Assembly: GCF_963675165.1 (NCBI RefSeq)
Contig: NC_087390.1
Location: 4,411,301 to 4,475,300 of the forward strand
DNA from: Halichondria panicea
Taxonomy: Eukaryota; Porifera; Demospongiae; Suberitida; Halichondriidae
Reading direction: 5' to 3'
DNA: 64,000 bases
Positions 301-44,806 of the stretch are shown in pieces (position 1 is the first letter of the stretch; each line of letters opens with the position of its first letter). The notes under the pieces were generated by a model, which saw nothing but the letters and a program-made list of their open reading frames with translations, searched no databases and was not told where the DNA came from. The position numbers and the translations under genes are program-made.

Positions 301-3300
301 ACTCTGGACATCTTCCATCCCTCAACAACTCTGAAGTGGGAGGAATGTCCCTCTCTACCAGTGGGGATGAGCGATGCCTCTTCAGTGTATCTGAATAGAA
401 CACTCTATGTTGGAGGTGGATTTACTGATGAACCCGGTTCGAAGGCGGAATCTGCACTGTACTCATTTAAACTTGGAGTTGACAGCACATGGACAGTGAC
501 AGACACACCCACCTATTGGTATACCCTTGTCGCCCATGACTCTGAACTGCTGCTAGTGGGTGGGAGAGAGTGTTCTACGGACGAGATAACAAACGAAGTG
601 TTCACGATGAGGGATGGACAGTTTGTTAAAGTATTGCCTTCTATGAAGGAGAAACGAACTTCACCATCTGCTGTCAGTAGTGGGTCTGCACTAGTTGTGG
701 CTGGAGGGTATGGTACCTCAGAAAATCTCTCTTCTGTGGAAGTGCTCAAAGATGGCCAGTGGACGACTGCACCCTCCCTACCAAGTGCAGGGTTTAGCAT
801 GAAATCTGCTCTCCATGGTGGCCAGTGGTACCTGATCCAGCAAGAAGGGAAAGTATTTCATGCAACACTACAATCACTCGTCTCTAGTATCGACAAATTA
901 CCGTGGGAGTCGCTACCTGATGCTCCAAATGAGGGTTTAGCTGCTGCCTTCTTTGGTGGCCATCTCTTGTCCATTGGAGCAGGGGATAATCGTAACCAAG
1001 TAACAGCTATCCATGCCTTCTCCTCCATCTTCCAGTCCTGGGAACATGTTTCAGAGGATTCTGACCTACTTGTACAACTGGTTAACCCGACAGCCATTGT
1101 CTTATCAAGCGATCAACTAATTTTGATCAATCAGAATGAAGTATTCCATGGACAACTTATTGGTGAGTTGGTGTAACTTGTATGCATGTACAACTGCCTT
1201 GTACAATTGCAGGAATAAACTTATTAATTTCATATAATTTGCAGTGAATCCCTTTGATGTCGACAGTCAGTTCACTGTAAGAGATATAGATTGCCTCAAA
1301 CCCTCAGCAGGAATATCTCTGATAGAGGAGCTTGTACAGCACACGCCCACTGCCTTCCCAGTTGTTGCTGGTGTGAATGTTCGTGCAATGTACAACCTCA
1401 TCTTGAGAGAGTGGGAATCAGGGCGTGGATCACGCCCACCCACATGGACAGAGCTTTTCAGAGCTCTCGAGGAGATGGGCTTGAGTGAGCTGGCTGGTCG
1501 GATGGAGAAGTATTTGAGAGGATTGGTTCCTGAGGACCGACCGCGACCACCCCCTGATGAAGAAGGTGACTAATTACCGTATAGCGCAAAATTTTTGAGG
1601 CAGTTAAATTTCGTGAAATGGCTAAATTTCAATGACACTGTGCCTTTCGTTAGCTAAGCATTGCGTGGATGTAATTTTCGTAGAAGATTGCTTCCATTAG
1701 ATAATAGTTTGTTTTAATTGTTTACAGACGGGACACCAGAGCAAAATAAAAAAATCAGCATTCTGGCAGAAAATACTCTACTGAAGGAGACAAACCAGCA
1801 CCTTGAAGAACAGCTTGCTCGTTTGAAATCGGCGGAAGAGCAATTGGGCCCAGTCAAGAAGGAACGATCATCCGACAAAGGTTTGAAACAATTTTTGTAT
1901 ATACATGCAATGAACTTGAACTTTTTTGAGGTAGATTATCGATCACCCTCATATGCATGTATGTCGACCACAATGATCATAAGTCCAGCTATCCTAAATA
2001 CAGGCTCCGCTCCCTATAGTTATAATCAATTGTCTTTCCTGATCAATTGTCCTTCCTGTTTGCTTATTTGCATGCTTTTTGGTTCTTTCGGAAATCCTAA
2101 CAACTTCCAATGTTTTATACAGTGGATCGAATCTCCATATAACCATAGATAGAACAGGAGAGGATTGGAAGCGACCGGGCCTCCCTGTGTAAATAGTTGA
2201 AACACTCTGCATTAATGTTTTCTTGGGGTTGACCGTTTAGTGGTTGTACTTAGCTCTCCTATTCGGGCTGGGAGGTACTCTAGAGAAGTAAATTTACACC
2301 ACTGACTAGCTCTAAGCCCGTTGTTGACTTTTAACTACTCTTTTAACTAGGGTGGGTTTATAATCGATTCAAAATACCCTTGTGCAAGAACTTCGAAGCA
2401 AAAGAGGGGATGGGAATTTATTCAAGATTAACGTATTTTTACGAGGGTACGGTATGCTCTATGAGTCAATTCCTGCTGCTATGAACTTGCTAACTGTTTC
2501 TCTAGGTCACATGTTTACAGGTTTTGCAATAATTTCTGGGTGAGTCCAGAGGAGGTCCGACATGTGTGCACGAATCACACAAGTTCAGTGCATTATGGTA
2601 ACATGATAATATCCAGGCCAAATACACTAGCATTTGTGCACGCATGCCAAGTCAGAGGAGGTTGAACATGTGTCATCATTCATGTGACATTCCTAAAGTT
2701 TTTTCTCGTGTTACCACAGATACTGAACAATTGTACAAAAATATTGCTATGTCCGACTGTATTGAGTCTGACTAGCTGTTGCCTGCATGGTCGGAGGATT
2801 AGCTAGATCTCAGCTTTTTGGTAGCCACCTTTGAGAGTCTGTCATATCGTTTTGCAGTAAAATGTGAAGAACCAGTCTCACAGCTACCACCTTTGGGACT
2901 GTCTACTACACAGCACCATGCAATACCATTCAGTGAGTTAGGTACCTCATTTGCATTGTTCTATACTGTTACCTCCACTCAGACCTCCCTGGTGTTGAAG
3001 TTGTGGCCAACACTTTTGTGATCGTCACCAACTCACCCCAAACCTTCCACTGGGATGGCTATGGGTTCAGCCTCCACGTACCACAGGGGTCCCTGCCAGC
3101 TGGTGTTGACCAGTGTCGACTAGACATCAAGGCCAGTGTAGCTGGACAGTACCAGTTTCCTGACAATCTCCAGTTAGTCAGCAGTGTCTTCTGGATGCGT
3201 CCTCATCCCTCGGGTCGATTTCAACAGCAGCTGACAGTCGAGATACAGCACTGTGCCAAGATGACCAGCTCGATATCCACAAAGCTCTCATTTGTGAGAG

Positions 3301-4553
3301 CACATTGCTCCCAGGAGTGTCTCCCCTACACATTCAAGCAACTCGAAGGGCGTGGCTCGTTCACTGAGCACAGCTCGTACGGTTGTTTGAGTGTGAATCA
3401 TTTCAGTTCATATGCAATAGCTGCGGAGGGTGATGTTGATCTACAGTATGTCGCTAGTCTATACTACCTGAAGGCTGACCCTCGGTCTGTTGAGATTCAT
3501 TTCACAGTCAATGTTGATGATGAAGTACATAATGCTGTGAGTGACAGATTGTATTGTGTTTTGTGTGTGCTTCTTTGTGAGTAACAGGTATTTTGTGCAC
3601 CTAAATTTCAATACGTACGTATTAATTGACCATGCATTTGTATTGATTCATAAGACTATTAAATAGGAAACACGGAAACACTTTGACATGCTGGGGGCGA
3701 AAGAGAAGCTGAGTTTGGGAGTGGAGTTTGATACAGAGTTTGATAACTCAACTATTTCACTGGATGTTCCATTATCCAGCGGTATTGATATCAATGAATG
3801 GAGTCTACTACCACTTGTTACACCAAAGGTAATGTTTGTAAGTGTTATCAAGTTTGGTTCTATATTTTAAGGTTGCAGATATCGAAGAAAAGAGTCGACT
3901 CATTCAAGCCAGGGAGAAAAGTTCCATCCACAATATTGCTAGCAATACTCTCTGAGAGTAGTTGGAACCGCAAGGTACCAAGACGCTCACACCTAATAAC
4001 ATTGAAAGGAACAAAGGACCCAGATAATCAAATAAGGATAGTGTTGGACCCAGTGGATCCAAAAGAAGGTATTTGAATTGTATGCACTTCTGCTTCAGAT
4101 ACAAAACACGTTTATGTAGGCCTCGTGCGTCTTTCTCAAGTGATCAACTCCATGAGTGTAGTGGCAGTCTCAAATCCCCCAGGCTCCCAGGTTGGACAAC
4201 CCATTGGTGCATCTGAACAATCTTCTATCACAGTTGCTGAAATTGTGAGACATGTGGGCATTAGTGAGGAGGACCTTGATCGAGAATGTTCCAATGAACA
4301 ATTGCAAAAAATCGGTACTTTCCTACCATATTGGCCCAAGTTTGCTGAGGCCCTACTCCTGACAAATGCACAAATTACAGGAATTCAGAACAATCCCAAC
4401 ATCGACTACGAAATGAAGGCAGAGAAAGTGCTAGAATTATGGCATAGGAGAGACATCTTCAAAGCAACTTATCGTCGTCTCGTTGAAATCTGTCTCCTAA
4501 GATTCAAGGATGGTGAATCAGTAGAGAAGATATGCTTACTGGTGAAAGGTTAG
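301..4553 (+). CDS. Kelch / death-fold / coiled-coil / ZU5 / UPA-like / Death-domain protein (5' end missing)
   Basis: Eight exons join with one open frame: 301-1162, 1245-1565, 1728-1880, 2858-2932, 2983-3536, 3667-3828, 3879-4068 and 4120-4553, all with AG/GT borders (2751 nt, 916 aa plus stop). Exon 1 encodes Kelch-type repeats (several VGG/AGG turns, WxxxxxLP motifs). Exon 2 ends in a death-fold helix pattern (PTWTELFRALEEMGLSELA). Exon 3 is a Gln/Glu/Lys-rich coiled coil. Exon 5 is a ZU5 domain (YGFSLHVPQGSLP, CRLDIKASVAGQYQFP). Exons 6-7 occupy the place of a UPA domain. The last exon is a Death domain with the helix core LELWHRR. ZU5-UPA-Death is the known cassette of UNC5 and PIDD, so a cytoplasmic adaptor or signalling role is likely; Kelch repeats would bind a partner. 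The frame starts at a splice acceptor (position 300), so an upstream start exon was not found. An inverted paralogue lies at 37048-44806. Confidence 0.85.
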
Positions 4554-6143: not shown

Positions 6144-6225
6144 AGTGTTAGTGAGACACTAACAGCATCAAAAACTATTCATTGGTGTTAGTGAGACACT
6201 AATAACGATCAAATAACGATCAAAA
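6144..6225. repeat. Duplicated TTAGTGAGACACTAA stem-loop in the NLR 3' flank
   Basis: The 15-mer TTAGTGAGACACTAA (6-bp arms, 3-nt loop) occurs twice, about 37 bp apart, each followed by a copy of CAAAAAC/ACTATTCAT-like sequence. The pair sits immediately downstream of the NLR stop codon, which is on the minus strand, so it would lie in the 3' UTR. This may be a simple tandem duplication or an mRNA stem-loop. Confidence 0.5.
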
Positions 6226-6230
6226 ACAAA

Positions 6231-15204: not shown

Positions 15205-16050
15205 CTAAGCAAAAGAAGTGCTCGCAGATCTACCAGTCCAGCTTTGACGAGTCTTTTCTCGAAAAGTTGGAAGCAGGTGTACGTAATTATAATAATTATA
15301 ACATTCATCAATATTCATGCTAAAATTATAATTTATCAGGGCATACCTTTAGTATATGCAGCATGCACATAATTATAATCATACAATTTTGTGTCCTTTT
15401 TATAGCTATACATGGAGAAGAGGTGTGTTCAGCTAGAGGAAGTTGACAAGGACTCCAGTGGCCTTTGGGGCAGGGAGAGTCAGACTCCTCCAAAGGAAAC
15501 CAGTGTGGAAAGAGAGACCCCTCCATCATCAGACACTCCTCATGTTGTAGAGACCCCTCCATCAAACAGCAGTACAACTCCTCCTTTGGTAGAGACCCCT
15601 CCACCATCAGACACTCCTCACGTGGTAGAGATCCCTCCATCAAACAGCAGTACAACTCCTCCTGTGGTAGCTGTAGAGACCCCTCCATCAGACAGTGGTA
15701 CGAACAGAGATCCAGCGAGCAGTGGTGAAGCCGTGACAAAACAACTAAAGCGTGCTCTTACACTTTGCACTGAAGACAATACTCCTGTGTTGAAGCGCAG
15801 CAAACGGATGAAGGGGAGACACAGTACCACCCCTGTGGTGAAACGCAGACGCATGAACAAAAGGATCAACAAAAAGATCGACACAAACATTTGTCAGCAG
15901 TGCCAGCAGGCAGGAGACGAGGAGAATTGGGTGGGATGTGATTACTGTCCACGTTGGTTCCACATTAATTGCGTGAGGATTGACCAACATGCATGACATC
16001 CGTGAACAGTGGAAATGCTCGGAACAGTGGAAATGCTCAATATGTTAAAC
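15205..16050 (+). pseudogene. PHD-finger protein remnant with Pro/Thr-rich repeats
   Basis: An exon-like block at about 15205-15262 (donor CAG|GTGTAC) precedes an exon opening after TTTTTATAG at 15406. The latter encodes a Pro/Thr/Ser-rich repeat region (ETPPSSDTPHVVE repeated), a Lys/Arg-rich stretch, then ICQQCQQAGDEENWVGCDYC and PRWFHINCV, the first half of a PHD zinc finger. The final Cys pair (WKC, then C) follows only after a frameshift near 15993, and the WKC phrase is duplicated. A PHD finger reads histone H3 tails, but it is also a frequent passenger in transposons, and the same finger type ends the integrase polyprotein at 20922. An upstream open piece (about 15040-15190, with SDKQISITVQDFQKRIANFP) may be another exon. 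Confidence 0.6.
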
Positions 16051-17646: not shown

Positions 17647-20600
17647 ATGAAGAATTTACAAGAGATTGAAAACTATTTACGAAAAGGAGAATACCCTCCT
17701 ACTATTAACAGCAAAACAGAGAAGGCTAACTTTAGAAGAAAATGCAGGCAGAACTTTAAGTTTGAAAATGGTAGCCTCTATTACAAGAAGCACACCAAAG
17801 CTGCTGATGCAGCTGACTGGAGGATATGTGTGCGCAGCGATTAGGAGAAATCAAGAATCCTCGAAGATTGCCATGCAGGTATAATAATTATTATGGCTTT
17901 GGTAAAATGATAATAGTAGGTAATAGAGCAATATGCTTGTAATCTATATTATACCAATTGATGCATGCATGCAGGAATAGCTGGTGGCCACTTTGGAAGA
18001 GATAGAACTATAGACAAGATATGTTCTAGATTCTACTGGAAGTTGATGGTGGAGAATATCCGAGAGTATGTAAAGAACTGCAGCCAGTGCCAGAGAATGA
18101 ACCCAGCATTTGTAAAGACAAATGCCAAACTCCATCCGATATCTGTACAACCCAAAGTCTGGCATCAGGTATATATATACTATAATGGCATTGCATAATA
18201 ATTATAATGACAGATTTGTTTTGAGCACAATCATATATTAATTATAATTATGTAATTCACTTTATAGGTTGGCATAGACTTGATAGGACCTTTGCCGATT
18301 ACATCCAATGGCAGCAAATATGTGGTAACATTGGTCGATTATTTTAGCAAATGGGCTGAAGCAGCCCCACTCCCTGACAACTGCATTTGGAGTGGCAATG
18401 TTCCTGTACAACTTGTTTTGTCGGTAAGCTATGCATGTGTGTGAAATTGTAATCACATGCATCTCTACACATAATTATAATAACACGTATTTAATGATTA
18501 TGGTTATACATGCACGCAGGTTTGGGTTTTGTGAGGTGCTGATATCGGACCAAGGCCGTGAGTTTGTTAATCAGGTCAACACAGAGCTTTTTCGATTCAC
18601 TGGAACAGAGCACAGGGTCACTTCAGCTTACCACCCACAAACCAACGGGCTAACTGAACGTTTCAATCAAATACTTCAAACAGCACTACTCAAATATGTG
18701 AATGACTCACAGACCGACTGGGACTACCACTTGCCCACTATTCTCTTTGCTTATAGGACGAGTAAGCAAAAGGCAACAAAGTATTCACCTTTCGAGTTGA
18801 TGTTCTGTCGGTGAGTTCTTCATATAATTATTATAATAATTACATGATAATCTGGCATGCATGCATTATTATTATAACATTCCACATGCAGGAAACCTGT
18901 ACTCCCTATTCAACTGGAGTTAGGCAGCGAGGGTGAACTTGAGCAGAGCTGGGACATTAGTGCCATTATGACCCACGCTCGAGCTGTTACAAAGTTAAAG
19001 GATGATATCCACAGCAAAGCCAAGAAGAACATTGACAATGCCCAAGAAAAGGACAAGATGTACTATAATCGGAAGCATGCAGACAAGAGGGTAAGCAGGC
19101 TATATATTGTATGAGCGTACCATGGCTATTTTCATTACTCGTTTAATGTCATAGCCATGTCATTTTTCTAATTATATAGGTGTTTAAGACTGGGAGTTTG
19201 GTCTGGCTGAGGAATTCAGCCAGGGAATGTAAGAAGGGAGACAAGCTGAAGCCTCGGTGGTTAGGCCCATACACGGTGGTGGAGTGCTTGGACAAGGGAG
19301 TCTTTAAGATTGCCAACCCTAAGACTGGAAAGACCCTAAAAAAGGCTGTTAACCAACAGCGGTTAAAGCATTACCATGGCTCAGACTCCGAAAAACCTCT
19401 CTTGGATCAACATAGTTCTCTCTCGGGTCCTTCCGAATTATCAGACAACCATCACGATGAATCTCTCGATCAGTTTAACCCTTCTTTGACGAGTACTCCT
19501 GTGAAAGACCCAAGCAAGGTATAATGCATGTGTCTCTAGATTTTGAAGCTAATTATATCTACATTACATTTCTCTTTACGATATTAATTTAATGTTTCTT
19601 TATAATTATGCACTCCATTTTTAGAAGCTGTGGGAAAAAAATTGTGATTTTCCCTCTTCTCACAAGCCAGACGCCCCCTCCTCTCACAAGCCAGACGCTC
19701 CCTCCTCTCACAAGCCAGCCGCTTCCTCCTCTCACAAGCCAGACGCCCCCTCCTCTCACAAGCCAGACGCTCCCTCCTCTCACAAGCCAGCCGCTCCCTC
19801 CTCTCACAAGCCAGACGTCCCTTCCTCTCACAAGCCAGATGCTCACTCCTCTCGCAAGCGAGACGCCCCCTTCTCTCACGTTAAGGCTGCATCCTCTATG
19901 GAGCCACCTTTGAAGAAGCAAAGGACTACTCAGTCTGTAACAAGAAAGGTATATAGTTATATACTTGTTAACAGGAGCTATCATTAATTATTATTAATAT
20001 GTGCACACTATACCATTCATTATAATTATTGTGTGCACATTCGACAAAATTCAAGCTACTGGGTGAAGGATTTGGACCTGAGAACGGGAGACAAGGATGT
20101 AGTTCTTGCTGAGAGCGGGATGCTTTCTGACCGTCATATGTATGCCGCTCATAAACTAATGAGAATGCAATTTCCAAACATTGAAGGCTGCTTCTCTACT
20201 CTTCTGGTTCAGAAGATGTCCTTTCCTGCAGTCACTAGTAGTGAAGCCACAGGTATAATTTCTACTTAAATTAATAGTAGTATTATTTATAGTATTGGTA
20301 TATACATAATTATACCTCATCCTCATCCTTGGCCGTATAATTATATATAATTATATCCTATACAGCCGTGCAGATATTCTTTGTAACAGAGAGGCATCAC
20401 TGGATTGCGACAGCACTCATCAAGGGGGAACTTTTCCTCTTTGATAGCTGCTTCCAATATGGGAAAGACCTGGAGCCGAGTGCTGAGCTGCAAATCGCAC
20501 AGATGTACAAGCCTTTAATAGCGCACAATGGGCTGTTACTGTCAGTGGCCTCCATTCAACAGCAGAGCAGTGGCAGTAACAACTGTGGTTTGTTTGCAAT

Positions 20601-20922
20601 TGCCGCTGCATACCACGCATTGCAAGGAGGCAATCTGGATACCATCACCCTAAATGAAGACAAAATGAGGCCACATCTTGTGCGTTGCTTTGAAAATGAG
20701 AAACTCAGAAGATTTCCAAAGTCAAAAGATGTTAGTAGCCGAAAGAGACCAGAAAGATTTTCCAGCATAGTAATTACGATATACTGCCCTTGTCTCCGCC
20801 CTGACTGTTATGATGAAATGGTCCAGTGCGATACGTGTAATGTGTGGTATCATTATAAATGTGTTTGTATTAAAGTATCTCCACTTGGAGATTGGTTTTG
20901 TCCTACTTGTAGATCTAGATAG
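17647..20922 (+). pseudogene. Gypsy-type integrase / Ulp1-like protease / PHD polyprotein, disabled
   Basis: Nine exons with AG/GT borders: 17647-17880, 17975-18168, 18268-18423, 18520-18810, 18892-19090, 19180-19518, 19625-19947, about 20056-20252, 20366-20922. Order: HHCC zinc domain (CHAGIAGGH ... VKNCSQCQ); DDE core (VGIDLIGPL; LISDQGREF; NGLTERFN); a GPY/F-like tail (LKPRWLGPYTVVE); a linker of 8-residue PSSHKPDA repeats; a Ulp1/C48-like cysteine protease (HHWIATALI, LFDS, GSNNCGLFAIA); and a C-terminal PHD finger (VQCDTCNVWYHYKCV). Two lesions: a TAG at 17842-17844 inside the zinc domain, and a one-base frameshift near 18383 between APLPD and TAFGVAMFLYNLFCR. The copy is therefore probably inactive. 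A minus-strand relative of the protease-PHD end lies at 24414-25021. Confidence 0.83.
19655..19870 (+). repeat. 24-bp in-frame tandem repeats in the polyprotein linker
   Basis: About nine copies of TCCTCTCACAAGCCAGACGC-like units of 24 bp encode PSSHKPDA. Because the unit is a multiple of three the frame stays open, so all frames of this stretch look coding. Confidence 0.85.
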
Positions 20923-24413: not shown

Positions 24414-25021
24414 CTAGATCTTCTTACTACAAATGTTACAAATAAAATCTATATCATCATCAGGTATCTTTTGTAAGCATTGCCGATGGAACCAGTCATC
24501 ACATTGGCTGCAATGTACCATTAGTTGGCCATGATCTGGCATGTGACAGTAACAGTACACTGATAAAGTCTCTGTTCTACACACTCGGCTAACATGCCTC
24601 CTCTTCTTCTTCACAGGGAACAGTGTTATCGTGCCTTTTTCTAGGCACTGACAAACGTGTGTTCTTAGCTCATCTTGGTGAAACACAACAGTAGTTGGGT
24701 CATCCTTAAGAATCAAGCAGGTGGCCACTGCCATTGCGTACAGAACACAATCCGCGATTCCTGTTTGACTTTTAATGTTGATGTATCACTTGTTCTCTTT
24801 GATGCTTTATTTTTATGTTCACTGTGACCTCTCTTTCCAAGTGATTGTTTCTTAGCACATAGCTCACTAACAAACTGCTGTATTCTAATCCTGTGCCCAG
24901 GTGGAAACTTCTTGCTTTTCGAAGTTAAAAGGTCAGAGTGTTCATCAGAGATAAATTGTTCTATTTGTTCAATCGAATTTCCCGGCTCATCACTTACATC
25001 AATTTTCAAAATGACTTGCAT
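24414..25021 (-). pseudogene. Ulp1-like protease tail + PHD finger, frameshifted
   Basis: From 24767 downward, one frame reads SQTGIADCVLYAMAVATCL (the Gln/Cys end of a Ulp1/C48-like protease) and continues into a PHD finger (VHCSQCDDWFHRQCL ... FICNICSKK), stopping at 24414. The preceding open frame, 25021 to about 24770 (QFVSELCAKKQSLGKRGHSE), is in a different register with no clear splice site between, so the gene looks broken. The organisation matches the C-terminus of the polyprotein at 20366-20922, so both probably descend from related transposons. Confidence 0.65.
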
Positions 25022-29560: not shown

Positions 29561-29889
29561 GACCCTTTAAGTAGTTCATTAGGTTGAACCACTCTATAGC
29601 TATTCATTTATTGTGTTGTTGGTGTTGTTTGTAGTAGTTCACCACGTCATTACGTTGAACCACTATTCATTTATTGTGTTGTTAGTGTTGTTTGTGTTGG
29701 TACTGCTCTCAACGTATAGCAGCTAAAAGTATTATATTCAAGGTATGCATGCATAGGTAGAATAATTCATAAGATAGCTAGAGTTGGGTATGCATACACA
29801 CGTAGGATATTAGAAACTCCACCCACAAGGTGTGATACGTGGTCTCTAACTGAGCCATTCTAAAAAATGTAACTCCACACTCTCCCACA

Positions 29890-31643
29890 CAGACATTCTG
29901 TGGGACAACCTGTACCCTTATACCGCCGACCTTCTGGCACTGGACGCATGCCGCCCTCTTCGGGCCCACCCCTGCCCCAAGCTCACTCCATGTCGAATAC
30001 CATTGGTAGTTCCAGCCTGGAAGCATGCCCTCCAGACACACCCAGATAAGGCGTTCGCCAACTATATTATCAATGGGTTAACAGACGGATTCCGAATCGG
30101 GTTCCAGTATGGGGCACCTCTCATCTCAACAACTAGGAATATGCCATCCGCGACCGCACACCCTGAAGTGGTTACGGCATACCTACAGAAAGAGCAGTCC
30201 CTTGGCAGGCTACTCGGCCCATTTCCTCCGAGCCATCTGTTGCCCCCAACCCAACTCAATCGCTTTGGGGTGATCCCAAAGGGCCATAACACCGGCAAGT
30301 GGCGCCTAATCACCGACCTATCCCACCCTCCCACGGGTAGCGTCAACGGTGGAATTGAGCCTGAGCTATGCTCCCTATCCTATACCACGGTGGACGATAT
30401 AGCCAACAGAATACTCCATATCGGAAAAGGAGCACTTCTAGCTAAAGTGGACATCGAAGCCGCATATAGGTTAATACCAGTCCACCCAGACGACCGCCCG
30501 CTTCAAGCCGTACAGTGGAACGGCTCAATGTTTATTGACCCAATGCTCCCTTTTAGGCTCCGTTCGGCACCTAAGATCTTCAATGCAGTTGCGGACGCCC
30601 TGAACTGGCACCTCACACAAACAGGCGTCCCAGAAGTATACCATTATCTGGATGACTTTATCGTCATTGGCCAGCCAAATTCCTCACAGTGTCACCAATA
30701 CCTGGAGATCCTGGAGAGGGAGTGCCGCTCCCTGGGGGTCCCATTGGCAGCCCACAAGCGAGAGGGCCCCTCATCAACATTAACGTTTCTAGGAATAGAA
30801 ATTGACACAGTGGTCGGGCAGCTATGCCTACCTTCCGATAAATTGAAACGCCTGGTCACCACAATTACTCAATGGGGAACCCGAAGGACCTGCTCAAAAC
30901 AGGAACTCCAATCCCTAATTGCCCTCCTGAACCATGCATGCAAAGTGATCCGCCCAGGGCGTACATTCTTACGCCGAATGATTGATCTGGTGACCACGGT
31001 GAGAAGCTCGGCACCAAAATCGGCCACCATTCGTCTGAACAATGAGTTCAGGGCCGACTTGGCCTGGTGGGCAGAATTCCTATCACAATGGAACGGCTCA
31101 TCCTTCTTCCCACCCCCCCTGCATATCCCCCGACTAGCACTCACATCAGATGCCTCAGGTTCTTGGGGTTGCGGGGCTTGGCATGGTACAGCATGGTTCC
31201 AGATACGGTGGAACGAGAGAGCACAGCCTCTCACGATTGCCGAGAAAGAACTTATCCCTATTATTGTGGCCTGTGCAACATGGGGACAATCATGGCAAGG
31301 AAAACACATAACCTGCTACTGCGATAACCAGGTGGTAGTCGCCTGCCTTCGGTCTAGAACCAGCAGACACATGGGCATGATGCACCTGATACGATGTCTA
31401 GCATTTGTAGAGGCACGCTTAAAATTCACATTGGCCTCGACGTACGTTACCACCAAGGCTAACTTTCTGGCTGATGATCTTTCGCGTAACCAATTGCCTT
31501 CTTTCCACCTAAAGCCCCCGCTCATGGACAGACAACCATCACAGACGCCTCTGGCCCTAATGCACCTGTTGCTGAACGAGAAGGCCGACTGGACGTCTTC
31601 CCAATGGCGACCTCAGTTCAGCGCTATTTTCAAGCAGGATTAG
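29890..31643 (+). CDS. DIRS reverse transcriptase / RNase H
   Basis: The frame is open from about 29870 to the stop at 31643; no ATG precedes the conserved region, so its start is probably supplied by splicing or has been lost. RT motifs: AKVDIEAAYRLIPVHP (motif A), LPFRLRSAPKIFNA (B) and YHYLDDFIVIG (C, YLDD box). RNase H residues: Asp in LTSDASGSWG, Glu in AEKELIPI, Asp in YCDNQVVV, and Asp in FLADDLSR. All catalytic positions are present, so the enzyme looks intact. Residue spacing from LVVPAWKHAL places motif A near residue 150 and YLDD near 215. Its last 40 bases overlap the recombinase frame, so the two are read in different registers. Confidence 0.9.
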
Positions 31644-32581
31644 CACCGGCAACTCAAAAAACTTATACCACAGCAATGAACCGTTTTAATAAATTTTGTG
31701 TTAAATGTATGATCACTGACCCTTTCCCTGTGTCGGAATTATTATTATGCTCGTTTGCTTCCTACCTCGCTGATGAGGGTCTGGCGCCCCAGACTGTCAA
31801 AACATACCTTGCATCTGTTAGGAACACCCAACTGTCTCTTGGTCTACCAGATCCTCGTGAAGGATCGTCATTACCTATCCTCAAGTGGGCCCAGGCAGGG
31901 ATCAGCCGGCTCAGGTTGTTAAAAGGCACTAAATCTCGAGTCCGATTGCCCATTACAATCCACATTTTGAGGGCTGTACAGGCACATTTGCACACGGCCT
32001 CATTCCCAGATAGAGAGGTTTTTTGGGCGATCGCTGCTACAGCCTTCTTCGGGTTCTTTCGTCTTGGGGAGTTGATCCAACCCAGGAACACTCACTGGGA
32101 CCCAAACCTCCACCTATCTTGGGGAGACTTCGCCGTCGACAATCACGACAAACCCCAGATGGTACAAATCCACTTGCGTCAATCAAAATGTGACCAGTTT
32201 GGCCGCGGAGCCGATGTCATTGTGGGTCGAACTGATGACAAAATATGCCCTGTTGACGCGATACTGGCGTACCTCAAACATCGCAACAATCACCCCGGCC
32301 CGTTCTTTGTCCTCCGTGACGCGACTTCAGCCTCGAAGGAATGGTTCATCCAGCGTTTACGGGAGAGTTTGGAGGCAATAGGTCTCCCTCAATCCTCCTA
32401 TGCTGGCCACAGCTTCCGAATTGGTGCTGCCACAACAGCCGCTCTTGCAGGGTTGGAGGACTCCATCATCCAGAAGATGGGTCGGTGGAACAGCTCAGCG
32501 TATTTGACATATATTCGCACCCCGAAGGACCAGCTCGCTTCGGTAGCGAAGGCACTAACTAAACCACAAAGGACTGGTTGA
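31604..32581 (+). CDS. DIRS tyrosine recombinase
   Basis: A 325-aa frame with ATG at 31604. An N-terminal SAM-like core-binding region (APATQKTYTTAMNRF) is followed by the catalytic domain: Arg in FFGFFRLGELI (about residue 153), His and Arg in GHSFRIGAAT (269 and 272), Trp in GRWNSSAY (295) and the nucleophile Tyr in AYLTYIRTP (303). These form the full R-H-x-x-R-W-Y set, so the protein appears intact. In DIRS elements this enzyme inserts circular cDNA without target duplication. Start choice follows the overlap with the RT stop. Confidence 0.92.
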   Translation: MATSVQRYFQAGLAPATQKTYTTAMNRFNKFCVKCMITDPFPVSELLLCSFASYLADEGLAPQTVKTYLASVRNTQLSLGLPDPREGSSLPILKWAQAGISRLRLLKGTKSRVRLPITIHILRAVQAHLHTASFPDREVFWAIAATAFFGFFRLGELIQPRNTHWDPNLHLSWGDFAVDNHDKPQMVQIHLRQSKCDQFGRGADVIVGRTDDKICPVDAILAYLKHRNNHPGPFFVLRDATSASKEWFIQRLRESLEAIGLPQSSYAGHSFRIGAATTAALAGLEDSIIQKMGRWNSSAYLTYIRTPKDQLASVAKALTKPQRTG

Positions 32582-35502: not shown

Positions 35503-36438
35503 TCCCTTTCCTTGGCAATCTGTTGTAGAAATTACAACAATGGGTAAGGAATCGTTATGATGAATTAGATGAAGTTGTATGTGAGCTCCTCCCTGACAAA
35601 CAAACTGTAGTCTAGGTAACGGCCTTATCAGTCAAGTAGGCTAAAAATCTGTGTCCTTTGATGTAAGCTTTGATGTCTCTTTGTGCATAAAAAAAAAAAA
35701 AAAAAGAAACCTTTGACTAGCTAGGAAGAGTAGCAGCAGTAGTAGTAGGAAGAGTAGCAGTAGTAGTAGTAGCAGTGCAAGCAGGACTAGACTAGATTAA
35801 AAAGTTGGTGGAAAGAATAACTGACCGTTTGGACGTCACCTGGCTGCCAGACTTTCATCTGGACTCTTCCCCCTGAGTAGCTGGCCTTTCTCTAAGCCAC
35901 AAAACTGAGCAAAAAGCTGAAGAAGCAGCTAGACAGAGACATGTACCTAGCCTTGAGAATTGGGAGGCGTGGCTCAACTAGTTAGCCCAGCCCAGAGGAA
36001 TTGTTACCGTGGGTACTGAACAACCGTAGAAGTAGGGCTACCCCTGGCCGGCTTTACTGAATTAACTAGCTGTGTCTGCTGTCTAGTTGGACCAGATTTA
36101 GCTAGATAATGGGGTAGAGAATAGTTGAGCGGTGCTGTGTGTAGCTTGAACTGTACTGGCTGGCAAGAATCTAGTAAGCACCCTATGCACTGATAACTCG
36201 TCAGAATGGAGGGTATGTTCTAGGGATCTGGACAGCTGTACATCCAAAGGAGCCAGGGAGTGCCAATCATCTTCTCCCAGTCTCTGACACGCTAAACAAA
36301 AGGAGCTAGAACTGGGAGTCCCAGCTAGAATTGCTAGCCTGATCTAGAATGACATGGAGGCGTGGTGAGGCGGGATCCACACTAATTGATCGACCTAAAG
36401 ACGCTCCTGTTCCAGATTTCACGAATGGCAAGGAAAGG
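35503..36438. mobile_element. Non-autonomous element with CCCTTTCCTTGGCAA ends
   Basis: CCCTTTCCTTGGCAATCTG at the left and its diverged complement GGCAAGGAAAGGG at the right bound about 935 bp. The same sequence occurs inverted at 58698-59645. Ends of the form CCCTTTCC next to TTAA or TTAG resemble piggyBac-type ends. No coding capacity. Confidence 0.7.
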
Positions 36439-37047
36439 GTTAGACACCTATTATGCTAAAATTATTCCGAGCATAATTTATCAGGGCCTATTGGTCTGTT
36501 GCTAGGTAACGATAATGGTGTCAAGATACCCCTGGGTCTGGGCTACCTGTAGGAAATGGTTACGAGTGATTTCAATGTACGGTTCATGATACGAATTTTT
36601 AATAGAAAAATATGTATTTATTCTGTATTTTCTTGTTTTAATTAAAGCCAGGAAAGGGTTAATTAATCCTAAAGAGTCATGATATAATTATACATGGACT
36701 ATTCATAGGTTGCTAATGTCATTTTTCCTCCAGTTAAACGTCAACAGAAGCCATACAAGTATATATCATTTTACTTTGTGCTGGTCTGCTAGACTCCACA
36801 CATACATGTAATTATACACCATGTATATACATCTAACCAGGTACTCCTGCACGATCTAAGAATATAATTATACTTGTGATACGTAATATCCAATGGTTTG
36901 TTCTCAATGTTACACGGAAGATGATTTGAGCTTCTTCCTGAGAATGCCTGCATGTGCCAGTTTTGTACATCGTATCAATGATAATTACAAGACCATGATG
37001 CAGTAGCTTCATGAAGCACTAGGACCTAACAATTTACGCTGTAAGGT

Positions 37048-40000
37048 TCAATTTAGCATGTTGATACATTGCAAAACAAACACTTTAGTAAAAATTATGG
37101 TTGTTTTTTTACCTTTCTCCTCAATTATATCAGCGAGATTATCTTGTTGGACAGTGTCACTTCTGAGGCCATTGCAAATGTCACTCCATGTACGAGAAGG
37201 TGAAGATCGCAACCAGTGAGTCAGCATTTCACGTAAGTGAGCTTTATTGCTGTTCTTGTTGGAATCAATTGCCTCAAGAGTGTCAACTTTAATCCCCAAA
37301 GCGAGGCCCAACTCAAACCAATCTTTAGCAGCCTTGATTAATAGAGAAAAAATATCTTGCAAATCCTCAATGCACAATTGGTTTTCACCTCTTTCATCAT
37401 CCTCACCTATATACATGGCAATAACAATAATCTAGAGTATATTTCTGTAGTACCAATTGCAATGAAAGCACCGCAGGTGCTGATGCCTCGGTGGAGGTGC
37501 CAAAGCTACATAACATACAGCTAGCTTTTATACACACATTAATTTATCATGATGAATAATTTTGCTGCATACGGGAAACTCAAATAGTGGGTAATGATAG
37601 ACCACGATTGTTGTTAAAAACAATCGATGCCAAAAGTTCAAGTCTAAAATTAATGGCAAGTCAGCAGAGCCTTACAGCTCTCTTCTCACTCTGCAGCTAC
37701 CAATAGTTAGCGTTCTAGTGCAGAGCTAACTACTAAGTAGAGTAGCAACACTCGGTGAACACATTTTGCTACGAACTCTTCTGAAAAGACTGCAATGGCA
37801 TTCCAAGTAAGCAAAACTAGGCATAACTCGAGGACGAAGCTTTATTTTGCAAATCCAACCATTGCAAGCCAAGAAAACATGACTAGAAGCCTATAGAAAC
37901 TCTTACTTGCATTTCATTGATCCTTGAGCAGCTGAAATAGTCTACACACACAGACACACTACCGTATATATACCTCGCTTACGTATGCGCACCGAGGCAT
38001 AACAACTTACGTATGTTTTCCGAAGTGTGAGAGTCTTCAAAGTCTATCAAAATATTCAGTTGTTTCGGTCTTTTCGTCCCATTTAATTTGAGTGTACATT
38101 CTAATTTTGCCATTGTTTTAAGACGATTTGCTTGCAGTTGAAGAGTGGGTATCCAGTGACTTCTACCAGTGTAGTCATCTACTTCACTTTTGGTAATCTG
38201 TAATATTATAAAAATGCCAAAGCACATAATACCGGTGGTTTACTTACAATTAGTGGTGTTGCTAATGCCATTATTTTCCAACCACTTGTAGTCACTATAT
38301 CATTTACGTCCAAGGAAATTCTATCCTCTTCAAATTCCAAGGCTGAGTATTGTTCCAAGACGGCACGCTTTTTTTTGTACTGCCGACTTACAGCCTGAAT
38401 AATGAAAGCAGTTGAAATCGTTTAGTATTATTATAATAAGGAGAAAAGCCCTACCTCACTGTGAATGTCAGTATTCCAAGTTACTACAAAATGAATTCTT
38501 GAAATAGAAGAAGACACCTCAAAATAGTAAAGACTTGCAATATAGTGTCGTTTATCAGTTATTTCGACTGTATTACCATATCCACTGAAATGATTGATTT
38601 CTAGCACCCCATACGAGCTATGTTTTGAGAATGACGCATGACTATCTACTACCTCAAATGTGTATGGAAGATGTTTTTGGGAGCAACATGCTCTCACAAA
38701 TGAGAGCTTGGTGGAGCTGGTAATCTTGGCACAGTGCTGTATCTCGATTGTCAGCTGCTGTTGGAATCGAAACAAGGGATGAGGACGTATCCAGAAAACA
38801 CCGCTGACCAACTGGAGATTGCCAGGAAACTGGTACTGTCCAGCTACACTGGCCTTGATGTCTAGTCGACACTGGCCAACACCAGCTGGCAGGGAGCCCT
38901 GGGGTATAGTGAGCTTGAACCCATAGCCAACCCAATGGAAGGTTTGGGGTGAGTTGGTGACGATCACACACGTGCTGGCCACAACTTCAACACCAGGGAG
39001 GTCTGAGGGGAGGTAACAGTATAGAACAATAAAAATGAGGTACCTAACTCACTGAATGGTATTACATGATGCTGTGAATTAGACGGTTGTAGCTGTGAGA
39101 CTGGTTCTTCATTCACTGCAGGCCATGCCAGGTGTATATATAAACGAGTATATAGTATACAGATATACTCTACAGGGTGTCACACAGGGGGGGGGGAGGG
39201 GGGATACCCCCCTCCTTTCAATTATGACTGAGTGTCCATAGCTGGGTATTGAAATAATAGTTGACCTTTTTTTAGCAACATTTTCTGGTTACTTTTCTCA
39301 TTTCCCCCCCTGTACTTCAAAATCCTGTATGACACCCTGCTCTAATGGGTAGATATAGATTTTAGCATTTCTATTTGTACAATTATGTAAATACATTATA
39401 ACCATGTACTGAATTCTTATCAATGGTGATATCATCACGTACTATAGTTTCGTGCAATAGTAGCAACTGATAATCTACATGTTTATGCGTATACATTCTA
39501 ATTACCGCACCACAAACAACTTTACACTTGGTAGAATGAAAAAAGAATTAGTGCTGATCACATAAGCCAATCAGCTTATCTGAAAGTAGTCAGGTGACCA
39601 TAGATTAAATAACTTAATCCACACTTAAGTGTGCTTTAAGTTGGTTTGTTAATGCACACTTTTTATCAAACAATCATAATACAAGGATTGAATCTGAATG
39701 TCATCATAATTATAATAATAATACAAGCAAATTGAATACGTACACAAGCAAAGCTGAAAAGTATTAGAAAGTTGAATGTTATTGTTTCGATTTGTTTCAT
39801 GTGTACTGAATTGCTGACTTGACCATAGCATCGCTTTTTCGTCTGGAGAAATAGGCTCAGCTTGCTTCGAAGATGTACGTACCTGTACCTAAGCCAGATC
39901 CATATAATCGTTTCATCAAAGGTGCTTCGAATATCATAGCGTTCCAAAAGAGCAAACCAGATAATCATTGCCATATAGTTTGCGCACAAAGTTTCCCATC

Positions 40001-43000
40001 CAGTAAGCCAGATCAGCTGGAGGCATATCCAGTAGTGGGATCGGGACTGTTGGTCAGCAGGAGAAATAAGTCGAGAACATACCCAGTCAGTCCAGATAGC
40101 TTTACATCGTATCTCCTTCTCGTTTGCATCAGTTACTGGATCTACAAACCTACTAAAACTTGCTATTACGTCTAGCTAGCTAGCTAGCCACCAGCAACTG
40201 ATTTAAAATGTAGCTAGATCTAGCTGCCACGAGGCTAGAGCTCATGTGACAGCACTAAATCCTTTAGAACACACCTAGCCAAGTCACGTGTTTTAATGCT
40301 GGTGCACTCGGATGGCCTCTCGGTTACGTAATGCACTCGGCTGCGCCTCGAGCACCACGTTAACCTCGAGGCCATCCTCGGCACGCAGATTAAAACACTT
40401 AATCTTGGCTAGGTGTGTTCTAAATAATACTTAAAGTTCGAGGTTGCATCAATTAGAGCAGTGCATAGCAAAAGAGCGAGTTTGGAGCGTGGTAGTTTAG
40501 TAGAGGAGCGAGAATCTGTAGGTACAGCTTTGGCTACTGAAAAGCAATTCTATTAGCGTTACCACATCACCCCCAGTTCACTGTATTTATGACTGCAATC
40601 CATGTCTCTTTGTATAATATTATTTCGTGGTCATTCTAATTAGCTATAAGCACCAGAAAATAATAATTCAATTTTACACTAGATATTATATTTCGAGGTT
40701 GGTGCTAATACTAAAAGGTATACGGTATGTACAAAACTGTTTCAAACCGTTTCCAGATGTTGGTTCCTCTTTGTTAGCGACTTGTTCTTCTTTCACCTTT
40801 AAAGAAGCAATCTCTTGCTCAGGGTTGTTTGCCTTCTTTAATTGAGTAATCTCCTTCTGTAACACAGTGTTGGCACTAATGTACTCAGCCAGCACACTGT
40901 TTAGCCTGAGAATTTCTTGCTCTGGTGTGGAATCTCAAGTGAAAACAAAAATATGTAATCATCTGATTTGCTCACCATCTTTCTCCTCCTCTGAGTCACC
41001 TTCCTTATCAAAAGGTGGTATGGGTGGGTCCTCAGGAACTGACCCTCTAAAGTACTTCTCCATCCGACCAGCCAGTTCCCTCAAGCCCATCTCCTTGAGA
41101 GCTCTGAACAGCTCTGTCCATGTGGGCGGGCGTGATCCACATCTTGACGCCCACTCTCTCAAGATGTGGTCGTACATCTCCCGAACATCCAAACCAGCAA
41201 CAGCTGGGAAGGCAGTGGGCGTGTGCTGTACAAGCTCCTCTATCAGAGAGATTCCTGCTGAAGCTTTGAGGCGATCAATAGCTCTTACAGTGAAGTGACT
41301 GTCGGCATCAAAGGGAGTCACTGTGAATAGAGGTTAGTATACATGTTTCACCTCACTTAAAGCAAAACAGAAATATTTAGTGATTGTCTACACATCATGC
41401 ACGTATGAACATTGGTGTACATTGTAAAGTTATGTCAATTTAAAGTTTGTACGGACGCGCGTTACTAAGCTGAGGCGCCACTAGCCTCGATCCCAGCTAT
41501 AGGCCGCACTACTTCAGGGGCCTGGTAACGACAGCTTACGCATGCGCTAATCTCACCCCTTTGGTATTATATGCTCAGTAAAACAATGACGTCACAACAA
41601 ACGAATAGATTGAAGGATCCGAAGAGATAATTGAAGGTTTCTAGCCCATCTGATAGCTACCCTTAGCCTACTATGCTACTCACAGCCTCCTACAACACTT
41701 ATAATACTGTGTGGACGACAGTCGTCTGAACGGAGTGAAAGCTGACAATAGGCTATAACTGACAAACGGCTACGCTATGCCCACCTAATACTAACCTTGC
41801 ATGGTGAAAGTCTAACTGATAATACCTGTGCAACAAACCTATAATTAATAGCTCTGCACGTGCACAAAGTTTCCTATTAAACTGAAATTGTTACCATTAC
41901 AGACAAAGAATGTCATACACAGAGCTATATAGTTAGCTAGCTAGAGACAGAGCCAGTGGCGGATCCAGAGGGGGTTCTTAGGGTTCAATTGAACCCCCCT
42001 TTGAGAAAGAAGTGAGTGGGAGGCTCAAGCAACTAGTTAGCAAGTTGTCCCTTTCTTACTAGCTTTCACATGCACTTCTCACTTACCTTTAGTCTTTGTT
42101 AGTCCTGCGAAGCTTTGTCTGTGCAGTTTCAGTGACTATGAACGCTAAAAACTCTCCAGCGTAGTGCATGCATAAAAAGTGATGACCTTTTTTTAGGAAA
42201 AAATTCAGTGTGTTAATGCGCATGCTCTCACTGTTTTGAAGAAGTGACGACCTTTTTTTTAACAGTCCTTGAGCCCTGGAACCCCCCCTTTCAAGAATCC
42301 TAGATCTGCCATTGAGAACTGTAGGTTTGTTGCAGCAGCTTTTTTTCTGATGGAGTCTACATGCCTTTTGTATGCTATCAGATCAGAGGAAGTACAACAG
42401 GCGCGATGCAGCTCAAGAAATTAGCCTTTGATTGAGCAAATATTATCCGCCCACATCATATGTTTTTACTGAGGCTAATTGCTTGAGCTGCACCGCACCT
42501 GTCGGACCTCCTCTGCTATTTAGACGGTCTTCACAATCGAACTTGCATCTACTTTCTTACGTTCGTTGTGTTTTAGCGACATATAATTATGTTTCATTCG
42601 TATATTTATTCAGTATTAGATCCCATTTGAGTGTATTTAGCAGGGAACTATGAGCTATAGTACCGGTACTATAGATTGCTCTGGGCTACAAACTACAACA
42701 TTGTACATTGTATTGTCATTTACAAGAAGATACACATGTAATAACATAAAAATTATTGTAGCTAGATCTAGATGCTTTATCTAGTAATATAATAACAGAA
42801 CTAGAGAGAAGCTCTAGTTTCTTTTTTTGGCTTTGTTCGAGAGTAGTAGGAGACGCTCATTTTTGGGGCAGTGTGCTGTGCTTTTTTGCTGCAAGGCTGC
42901 ATAGGGGAGGAGCTGGATGTATGGCAGTGCTGGGATTCTAGCTTTGGCTTCTTCCTAAAGTTCCTTTCGCTTTGTTCAAGAGTAGTATAGGAGCCGCTCG

Positions 43001-44806
43001 TTTGCTAGGCTTGTTTGCTGCAAATTATAGCTTAGGTGTCTTCCTTTCGCTTTGTGAGAGTAGTACGAGCCGCTCGTTTCTTGGGAAGTGTGCTGGGCTT
43101 GTTTGCTGCAAAACTAGGGGAGGAGCTGGATGTTTCCGTTTTGTGGGTGGAGCTAGGACTATAATTTTGTCCATCAAACTGAGGTGGAGGAACAGGGTTG
43201 ACTTGAATAGAGACCACAGATTTAGTAGAGACACAGATGCCAACTTCAGATATTAGTTTTCAAAAGAATAATGATGCAGTTGCTAGGTTGGCTGTTTATA
43301 TAGGTTGACTGTTGCTAAGCTAGTGCATTTCTAGTAGCCAATAGGTTTTGTAATCTAAATCAGTTAGAACATGTGCATTCGGTATCTATGGTCCCTCGGG
43401 CTAAAGCCCTCGAGCTTTGGGACACTATAACACATATACCTCATGCCCATGTTCTAACTATAACTTATTTCTGATCACCTGCGCATGTGCCTTCCTCTCT
43501 TGAAGGCCTGCGAAGGAGCTACCAGAAACAATGCACAATACAGGTCAACCTAAGATTTTAGTGTGCGTCATTTGGAAACAAATGAACCGCAGAACTTAAT
43601 TGGCCTTCATATTGTTAGAAGCCAATGTTTGTTTTGCGAGTATCAAACGTATGCGAACTTTGCGAGGGTTGATCGCAAAACCTATATTAGTACTACACAC
43701 GATCCTTGTCAGAACACAATAGCAACAGGTGTCAAGCTCATTCACAAAGATTTTTCAAAGTAATACAGTATATAAATCAGTTTGAATATCTGCTACATAT
43801 AGCTGATTGCACGTTTAACAGTGAGTGGCGCTTATCAGTACCTTATAAAAGTGAGATTTTAGGTGAAATGAAAGTTATACAACTATTTATTTGTGGCATA
43901 AGACTCACCAATAAGTTTCCCGTGTAGTACACTACAGCTACTGCTCACAACCAGTTGTTCGCTTGACAAGACAACAGCTGCTGTCAAACCCAGTACAGGC
44001 AGGTGCTGACCTGCCTGTTCGCTTGACGTTGGCAAACCCAGTGATAGAGGCAGGTCAGCAGCATGTACCCAGGACTGGGTGCTAGAGGACAAGGCATAGA
44101 TGGCTGTTGTGGGATTACGGTTATCCCCTCCTCCAATGGACAAAAGGCAGCCACCAAAAAAGGCAGCAGCTGAACAGCTATTAGGAGCATCAGGTAGCGT
44201 CTCCCATGATGACTGGTCGGATCCAGATATGAGTAATAAAAGCGACACACAAAATATTTTTCCCTGATATGTGATCAGGTACCACTGGTCACCATGAAGA
44301 GCCGATTGCATGACAGACCCTGCACTTGGTAGTGAGGGAACAGTCGTCCACTGGCCATCTTTGAACACTTCCACAGAGGAGAGCTCTCCTGAGGTGTCAC
44401 ACCCTCCAGCCACAACTAGTGCAGACCCATCACTGACAGCAGATGCTGACTCACGGCTCTCGATCATAGGAGGCAATGTTTCAACAAACTGTCCATCCCT
44501 CATCGTGAAAACTTTGTTTGTTATATCATGTGTATGATACTCGTACCCACCCACCAGTAGCAGTTCAGAGTCATGGACGACAAGGGTATACCAATAGGTG
44601 GGTGTGTCTGTCACTGTCCATGTGCTGTCAACTCCAGGTTTAAATGAGTACAGTGCAGCATCAGCGCCAAATCCATCGGTTAGGGTTAGAATAGACCCTC
44701 CTCCAAAATATAGTGTTCCATTCAGATACTCTGAGCAGGCACCGCTCATCTTCACCGGTAGAGAGGGCCATTCCTCCCACTCCAGAGATGTTGAGGGATG
44801 AAGAGT
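37048..44806 (-). CDS. Paralogous Kelch / death-fold / coiled-coil / ZU5 / UPA-like / Death-domain protein
   Basis: Eight exons read in phase: 44806-43909, 41320-40976, 40933-40748, 39115-39053, 39002-38455, 38394-38248, 38197-38011 and 37406-37048 (2733 nt, 910 aa plus stop). Intron phases match the plus-strand copy one for one. Kelch repeats, the death-fold exon (PPTWTELFRALKEMGLREL), coiled coil, ZU5 (CRLDIKASVAGQYQFP) and UPA-like exons are clearly homologous. The last exon is also a Death domain (WFELGLALGIKVDTLEAID) but not the same type as in the plus copy. A donor at 37112 leaves open a further exon. Introns 1 (2.6 kb) and 3 (1.6 kb) are swollen by MITEs. As in the other copy, the frame opens at an acceptor, so the first exon is missing. 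Confidence 0.85.
37540..37990 (-). repeat. Inverted copy of the 16.2-16.6 kb dispersed repeat
   Basis: It matches the complement of 16195-16640 over most of its length (for example GGGAAACTCAAATAGTGGGT and AAGCAAAACTAGGCATAACT). It lies in the last intron of the minus-strand Kelch gene and supplies most of that intron. Confidence 0.72.
39173..39340. mobile_element. 168-bp MITE, CAGGGTGTCA ends
   Basis: CAGGGTGTCACACAGGGG at the left and TGTATGACACCCTG at the right. TA precedes the left end, but the right flank is not TA. It is in intron 3 of the minus-strand Kelch gene. Confidence 0.65.
40264..40423. mobile_element. 160-bp foldback, TTAGAACACACCTAGCCAAG ends
   Basis: TTAGAACACACCTAGCCAAG pairs with CTTGGCTAGGTGTGTTCTAA, and inner blocks (GTGTTTTAAT; GGATGGCCTC) also pair. 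It lies in intron 3 of the minus-strand Kelch gene. Confidence 0.75.
41484..41840. repeat. Dispersed repeat starting TAGCCTCGATCCCAG
   Basis: This block (including GGTTTCTAGCCCATCTGATA and TGGTGAAAGTCTA) matches 51598-52150 collinearly, where a MITE is inserted. Its head TAGCCTCGATCCCAG is that of the TAGCCTC elements, but no inverted right end was found. It lies in intron 1 of the minus-strand Kelch gene. Confidence 0.7.
41954..42315. mobile_element. MITE with CAGTGGCGGATCCAG-type ends
   Basis: CAGTGGCGGATCCAGAGGGG at the left and CCCCCCCTTTCAAGAATCCT then AGATCTGCCATTG at the right form imperfect inverted ends. A fragment of the same end (GGGGCGGATCCAG) is at 13448. It lies in intron 1 of the minus-strand Kelch gene. 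Confidence 0.6.
42384..42516. mobile_element. Foldback with CAGAGGAAGTACAACAGG ends
   Basis: CAGAGGAAGTACAACAGG pairs with CCTGTCGGACCTCCTCTG, and GCAGCTCAAG with CTTGAGCTGC. The ends belong to the GAGGAGGTCNGACAT group also seen at 53925-54345 and 55501-56104. Confidence 0.65.
42605..43468 (-). mobile_element. Hairpin-CCAAT-TATA module M1 with basic short frame
   Basis: Read on the minus strand: a hairpin (43468-43355, loop GAGGGCTTTAGCCCGAGGG), CTATTGG, CTATATAAAC, then a frame with PVPPPQFDGQNYSPSS, SFAANKPSTLPKKRAARTTL and TKRKEDT, stop near 43030. The AACAAGCCCAGCACA and AAGCGAAAGGAA units are repeated with divergence downstream. No ATG is in this frame. It is an inverted near-copy of 57845-58690. 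Confidence 0.65.
43469..43908. other. Intron 1 remainder
   Basis: No feature was recognised, apart from a short phrase (CACACGATCCTTGTCAGAAC near 43697) also present at 9682 in the NLR intron. Confidence 0.45.

Follow-up and report, generated by a model that had tools for sequence, protein, structure and literature searches.

Two inverted genes with Kelch, ZU5 and Death exons

The window analysed here is a stretch of 64,000 nucleotides from the sponge Halichondria panicea (C14:4411301-4475300, on contig NC_087390.1 of a 131 Mb assembly of 39 contigs that was also searched as a whole). It carries two inverted genes, copy A (301-4553, forward strand) and copy B (44806-36910, reverse strand), in which a Kelch exon precedes exons for a ZU5 and a Death domain. 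A first-pass annotation had proposed such an inverted pair, and exon-wise Pfam searches together with GT-AG sequences at every exon border bear this out. Splice borders, frames and phases were read from the spliced exons: the frames hold no internal stop, and the exon ends have phases 1, 1, 1, 1, 0, 0 and 1 at seven junctions in both copies. The claim of identical phases was thus correct, but that of identical exon number was not, as copy A ends inside exon 8 and copy B carries a ninth small exon. The first coding exon was not found when the upstream DNA of six genes was compared, and the Kelch exon opens at a splice acceptor.

In copy A, with all features on the forward strand, the Kelch propeller head (301..1162) is identified by matches to Kelch_6 (E 1.6e-11) and Kelch_1 (E 1.3e-10), by splice borders and by phase, and reads as six blades. 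Exon 2 (1245..1565) encodes a death-like domain, DD1, which matches Pfam Death below the cut-off (E 0.059) and is further characterised by alignment and model. Exon 3 (1728..1880) appears, on reading of its translation, to encode a coiled-coil-like stretch; it is placed by splice phase and by the related exons that a profile seeded with this very exon finds in the corresponding position of other loci of the family. A short linker (2858..2932), placed by phase and 75% identical to the copy B linker over 20 residues, leads to the exon for ZU5 and the first UPA-like strands (2983..3536; Pfam ZU5 E 4.5e-5, with structural matches to ZO-1 and UNC5b). There, the ZU5-exon alignments place a His-Phe-Ser at the end of ZU5 (3399..3407), a candidate self-cleavage site. 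Two exons follow that we read as UPA-like parts 1 and 2 (3667..3828 and 3879..4068), and the last exon (4099..4553) holds an A-type Death domain (Pfam Death E 7.6e-6) and the stop codon.

Copy B repeats this order on the reverse strand. The Kelch head (43909..44806; Kelch_1 E 1.9e-15, splice phase) is 68% identical to that of copy A, DD1 (40976..41320; Pfam Death E 0.018, below cut-off) 78%, the coiled-coil-like stretch (40748..40933; by reading, splice phase) 45%, and the exon for ZU5 and the first UPA-like strands (38455..39002; Pfam ZU5 E 7.4e-4) 68%; the linker (39053..39115) is placed by phase and by its identity to the copy A linker, and the candidate cleavage site, again His-Phe-Ser by the ZU5-exon alignments, lies at 38584..38592. 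Further downstream the two copies part: UPA-like part 1 (38248..38394) and part 2 (38011..38197), both placed by a family profile and splice phase, are 27% and 26% identical to their counterparts in copy A, and the B-type Death exon (37113..37406; Pfam Death E 2.4e-6) does not align with that of copy A (blastp E 5.2). The ninth exon (36910..36947), supported by its acceptor, its phase and a matching tail in a relative (locus L008), adds a basic tail of 12 residues and the stop. An identical paralogue pair, one of the candidates considered, was rejected because the 3' halves of A and B differ: the simple paralogy stated in the first-pass annotation holds for the 5' half and not for the 3' half. 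Copies A and B are mosaics with a shared 5' half and different UPA and Death ends.

Identity of the domains

Splicing the exons and running hidden Markov model searches, as had been suggested with the first-pass annotation, does recover ZU5 and Death. For ZU5, copy A scores above the Pfam cut-off and copy B slightly below it (20.2 bits against 21), and ZU5 is the sole Pfam family found for the aligned ZU5 exons, 16 of 22 matching at E <= 0.01. The last large exon, searched alone, exceeds the Death cut-off in both copies; when the spliced ZU5-to-Death part of copy A was the query, ZU5 was still above its cut-off and Death reached 22.4 bits against 22.6. Among the structural matches that Foldseek gave for the ZU5 model, the ZU5 domain of ZO-1 came first (probability 1.00) and UNC5b (3g5b) third (probability 0.95), with no E-value significant, and a profile search of the Protein Data Bank (PDB) with the ZU5 alignment returned only Spindly (E 0.61) and ZO-1 (E 0.8).

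For DD1, Death was the most frequent Pfam match of the alignment, reaching E <= 0.5 in 8 of its 19 members and 0.004 at best. Its model has five helices, with a predicted local distance difference test score (pLDDT) of 65, and its two best Foldseek matches are RIPK1 death domains (probabilities 0.63 and 0.41, E 0.43 and 0.80); together these signals suggest, weakly, that exon 2 is a death fold. As for the exons between ZU5 and Death, exons related to UPA-like parts 1 and 2, found with profiles seeded from the family's own exons, sit at the expected position in 21 of 22 ZU5 loci each, and this position suggests that they are UPA.

A family of at least 16 genes with exchanged modules

Rather than forming a pair, copies A and B belong to a family of at least 16 genes. 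Genome-wide, 16 Kelch exons are at least 65% identical to that of copy B (B included), the next ones being at 31-38%; this count covers the 131 candidates, out of 396, that were scored. All 16 have a ZU5 exon on the same strand within ~5 kb downstream and, farther downstream on that strand, a Death exon, which is B-type in nine and A-type in seven, one of these A-type assignments being uncertain (gene C14:4949558, where Death is ~7 kb off). The matched parts of the 16 Kelch exons contain no stop codon. Exon 2 gave 13 strong matches, in 12 of the Kelch genes and in locus L007, where it stands behind a Death-NACHT frame; it is divergent in the other four Kelch genes, so that DD1 is present in 16 of 16.

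The modules of these genes have not stayed together. In the 120 pairwise comparisons of the 16 genes, pairs of higher Kelch identity also tend to have higher identity in the front of their ZU5 exons (Spearman 0.43), and no such relation is seen for the back (-0.04); in the closest Kelch pair (95% identity) the ZU5 front is 91% and the back 40% identical, with different Death types. In our own classification, all four combinations of the two main ZU5 back types with the two Death types occur. Moreover, B-type Death is found outside the family: on C14 between 0.5 and 1.7 Mb, seven of the eight NACHT domains among the matches listed have a B-type Death match (42-47% identity) at most ~2 kb upstream on the same strand, and B-type Death is therefore something that the family and NLR-like genes have in common.

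ZU5 exons behind other heads

The ZU5 unit extends beyond the Kelch genes: 38 ZU5 exons are at least 62% identical to that of copy B (B included), and 22 of the 38 lack a window-type Kelch. Thirteen of these 22 were read with their flanks (L006-L009 and L011-L019). L011 has a coiled-coil-like stretch and ZU5 in one open frame, and it alone shows the upstream frame and ZU5 in the same gene. L018 has a COR-like frame, by reading, and a Death exon upstream of ZU5, and L012 has Death-like exons there. In L008 a long coil-like frame lies upstream of ZU5, coil and linker exons accompany ZU5, and neither Kelch nor DD1 was found within the 10 kb read; the coil is therefore part of the ZU5 unit. At the other end of the gene, a Kelch locus, L005, has Kelch and DD1 in one open frame that runs without stop across a predicted intron of 51 bases.

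Pfam found no NACHT in the exons of A or B, and a home-made NACHT profile run over the loci read matched only the separate NLR gene of the window and L007. In L007 (C14:593500-603499) a Death-NACHT frame lies directly upstream of the set of DD1, coil, ZU5 and UPA exons that in other loci comes after Kelch, an arrangement that is possibly a head swap or possibly a truncated neighbour. Two more distant ZU5 loci are of note for what stands upstream: a kinase at L020 (C1:5168800-5176799), and a COR-like frame with Death-like exons, by reading, at L021 (C6:2621500-2629499), where ZU5 ends in Phe-Cys.

An apparently diversified Kelch head

Of the exons compared in the 16 genes, Kelch has the highest median pairwise ratio of nonsynonymous to synonymous substitution rates (dN/dS), 0.69; exon 2 follows with 0.60 and ZU5 with 0.33. 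In 116 of 120 pairs the ratio is higher in Kelch than in ZU5. Within the propeller, with borders set by eye on copy A, the ratio is 1.21 in the 2-3 loops, 1.00 in the 4-1 loops and 0.41 in the remainder, and the 2-3 loop value was matched by none of 299 circular shifts. A mechanical rule that takes the columns after each GG gave 0.92-0.93 for these columns against 0.58-0.62 elsewhere, and their dN was reached by 0 of 281 circular shifts when 5, 6 or 8 columns were taken and by 1 of 281 with 10. In KEAP1, the residues that touch the ligand presumably sit in these same 4-1 and 2-3 loops. They include Tyr334, Ser363, Arg415, Ser508, Tyr572 and Ser602 (PMC6891428).

The other Kelch genes nearest to the window family offer an independent comparison. 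These are kinase-coil-Kelch genes such as L010, which lie in arrays on C1 (15.4-17.4 Mb), C6 (0.48-0.80 Mb) and C28; more than 100 related Kelch exons occur, mostly in arrays, and linkage to a kinase was shown for eight genes. These eight (28 pairs) comprise L010 and seven genes chosen because their kinase and Kelch matches lie near each other on the same strand; identity is 99.5% in the kinase, with a dN/dS of 0.08, and 86% in the Kelch part, with a dN/dS of 1.06. Twenty-two columns show at least four residues among the eight genes, with at least one such column in every 4-1 and 2-3 loop of six blades, in a naming of blades that is our own. At those 22 columns the mean entropy of the window family is 1.96, which none of 270 circular shifts reached, compared with 0.55 elsewhere, and over the 271 shared columns the variability of the two families correlates (Spearman 0.36). 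PDB matches of the kinase-Kelch head include KEAP1 and KLHL12 chains. A kinase exon upstream of window-type Kelch was sought with tblastn at 11 loci, six of them window-type, and rejected, L010 alone being positive. We did not meet kinase-Kelch arrays in the part of the literature listings on kinase, Kelch and sponges that we surveyed.

A conserved Phe-Ser at the end of ZU5

Phe-Ser ends ZU5 in 38 of 38 close exons, preceded by H, Q, K, R, Y, N or E, and it is kept in all four back-part types that we distinguish in the family. A further 20 ZU5 loci, more distant, show Phe-Ser in 13 cases, Phe-Cys in four (L021, L064, L067 and L069) and Phe-Glu in one (L065); two have neither (L066 and L068). 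Cleavage of PIDD follows its ZU5 domains, at HF/S, and that of CARD8 and NLRP1 takes place at SF/S; in CARD8 both Phe and Ser are required and mutating the residue before Phe matters little (PMC3210808). Since ZU5 ends here in the pair at which PIDD, NLRP1 and CARD8 are cut, the chain may cleave itself. The ZU5 exon has many other invariant columns, and amid these the conservation of Phe-Ser is suggestive of cleavage, not proof of it. Self-cleavage has already been predicted for ZU5/FIIND proteins joined to TRADD-N (PMC8195603).

Comparison with known systems

PIDD1 has the order LRR-ZU5-UPA-Death. The window copies share with it ZU5, the UPA position and a C-terminal Death in the same order, and the HF/S of PIDD corresponds to the His-Phe-Ser of A and B; they differ in carrying Kelch, DD1 and coil in place of LRR, one ZU5 being found per copy, and in matching no UPA profile. 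The FIIND of NLRP1 and CARD8 is a ZU5-UPA unit followed by CARD (PMC7483925). Like these proteins, the window copies have an N-terminal part, a ZU5 ending in Phe-Ser, a UPA-like part and a death-fold effector, but NACHT-LRR is replaced by Kelch and CARD by Death, and the FIIND His was not found to be conserved. UNC5 receptors share the ZU5-UPA-Death module order and, with UNC5b, the third-ranking structural match of the ZU5 model; they differ by lacking the Kelch head and by the Leu that UNC5b has at the position of the Phe (PMC3210808). KEAP1 and KLHL proteins have the Kelch propeller in common with the window genes, in which, however, Kelch is joined to ZU5-Death, the loops are hypervariable among paralogues and no BTB-BACK was seen in the exons read.

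Among sponges, expansions of death-fold immune genes, with mention of NACHT-ZU5, are described for Dysidea avara (PMC12909245); the window copies are without NACHT, and Kelch has no occurrence in the main text of that paper. In two sponges, Kelch-motif genes and DEATH-domain genes, listed separately, respond to microbial products (PMC6208332). We met no description of the Kelch-ZU5-Death order in the portion of the open-access literature surveyed, in agreement with the first-pass annotation, to which no described protein with such an order was known.

A possible self-cleaving sensor and its alternatives

As far as its sequences can tell, the Kelch-ZU5-Death family appears to be a type of innate immune sensor not described before. 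Our best reading, to which we give a probability of about 0.5, is a Kelch sensor, diversified in the germline, on a ZU5-UPA-Death platform that may cleave itself. The exons would be spliced into one transcript, and the Kelch propeller would serve as the recognition head of an intracellular multigene sensor family, its 4-1 and 2-3 loops, which form the ligand face in KEAP1, being diversified from gene to gene in the germline. DD1 and the coiled-coil-like stretch would join this head to the ZU5-UPA-Death platform, and self-cleavage at Phe-Ser would leave two halves of the chain, Kelch-ZU5 and UPA-Death, that remain attached to each other. Binding of a ligand, or degradation of the sensor half, would then free UPA-Death for assembly and signalling. 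This last step is carried over by analogy from NLRP1 and CARD8, whose inflammasomes are driven by freed C-terminal fragments (PMC7483925). Recombination of UPA and Death modules among genes would give similar heads different outputs; the B-type Death among these outputs resembles the Death domains beside NACHT genes. A Kelch head on a Death-domain platform had been suggested from the start: the order in 16 of 16 genes, the hypervariable Kelch face and the conserved ZU5 agree with it, and innate sensing itself would follow by inference.

Several observations weigh against this reading. The ZU5 fold model has low confidence (pLDDT 53) and is poor past residue 88. Pfam finds no UPA in spliced A or B, copy B giving only an unrelated match below threshold, so the UPA-like domain of the first-pass annotation was not confirmed and the label follows from position. 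Its second death-fold exon has weak support: the Death-like signals are below threshold in Pfam, and in the PDB profile search with DD1 thioredoxin domain-containing protein 5 came top (E 2.6e-4, with no stretch passing alone), followed by sulfhydryl oxidases; two matches that we take to be death domains, THO complex subunit 1 (E 0.05) and TNFR1 (E 0.3), ranked lower. In the Kelch exon, the mechanical rule uses six GG anchors, of which one is no loop; columns 137 and 270 of the 22 barely vary in the window family; and loop dN/dS is about 1, not clearly higher. Since dS is elevated in the loops too, selection above neutrality is unproven and gene conversion may be at work. Of the 16 Kelch genes only 12, copies A and B among them, have the full His-Phe-Ser. 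In NLRP1 the catalytic triad is H1186, E1195 and S1213, with the His 27 residues before the Ser (PMC9700037); the alignment of 22 ZU5 exons shows no conserved His at that spacing and no His and Glu comparable to H1186 and E1195; its one invariant His, at position 89 of the ZU5 exon, precedes the Ser by 52 residues. Between coil and linker the copies have gaps of ~1.0 kb (A) and 1.6 kb (B). Finally, the best single splits between ZU5 front and back fall at codons 109, 131-132 and 161 of the exon, close to the Phe-Ser pair, which occupies codons 140-141, without coinciding with it. Recombination at the scissile bond itself, an idea that arose from the A/B DNA match stopping about two codons past Phe-Ser, was rejected on account of these splits.

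The same Kelch-Death sensor might work without cutting itself, ZU5-UPA clamping Death as in UNC5b and Phe-Ser being structural. The lack of a conserved His at the NLRP1/CARD8 spacing and the structural matches of the ZU5 model, ZO-1 and UNC5b, would suit this view; we nevertheless consider it rather unlikely, since Phe-Ser is found in every close exon and in 13 of the 20 distant loci, four others of which have Phe-Cys, and UNC5b itself has Leu in place of Phe. There is a small chance that the family serves allorecognition, its Kelch face binding polymorphic self partners and not microbes and its Death domain leading to rejection or cell death: a hypervariable face, a clustered multigene family and module exchange would fit such a system, but NLR genes lie within the window and, as arrays, elsewhere on its contig, and these favour innate sensing, by association only.

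A smaller chance still attaches to each copy being two adjacent genes, Kelch-DD1-coil and ZU5-UPA-Death. The 22 close ZU5 exons without a window-type Kelch upstream are compatible with this division, as is the longest exon gap of copy A (977 bases), which falls between coil and linker; the conservation of the order in all 16 genes, the matching phases across the gap in both copies, the coil and linker that go with ZU5 in L008 and the open frame shared by Kelch and DD1 in L005 speak for one gene. Least probable of all is relaxed decay, in which a recent tandem family drifts after duplication without any sensing function: a Kelch dN/dS of 0.69 fits relaxed selection, but the lower ratio of ZU5, the intact matched parts of the 16 Kelch exons and the large coincidence of the variable columns with those of the independent kinase-Kelch family do not.

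The sensor reading, if true, would mean that an early-branching animal combines a ZU5-UPA-Death switch of the PIDD, NLRP1 and CARD8 type with sensor heads that can be exchanged, and that diversified recognition can be built on the Kelch propeller. Two questions thereby become testable: whether ZU5 sensors that cleave themselves are older than the vertebrate inflammasomes, and by what means invertebrates achieve high-diversity intracellular recognition. More tentatively, and with odds somewhat below even, one germline-diversified Kelch scaffold with a variable ring of about twelve positions may have been mounted on two chassis, a kinase and a self-cleaving ZU5-UPA-Death platform with shuffled outputs. 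Such a two-chassis Kelch system would be an intracellular counterpart of variable-receptor repertoires; we came across no account of it in the portion of the literature surveyed.

Other genes and elements in the window

Between the two copies lies an NLR gene (8894-6231, reverse strand) with NACHT (E 1.4e-24) and LRR; a frame at 12335-12009 (reverse strand) is possibly its N-terminal exon and has no Pfam match at E <= 0.1. Two stretches resemble mobile elements when their translations are read: a reverse-transcriptase-like frame followed by a recombinase-like frame, of DIRS type (29850-32581, forward strand), and a 556-residue frame of a piggyBac-type transposase (59812-61482, reverse strand). 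Frames ending in a PHD finger were found by Pfam at 15406-15996 and 20341-20922 (both forward strand) and by reading at 24414-24785 (reverse strand), and these are perhaps parts of a mobile element family.

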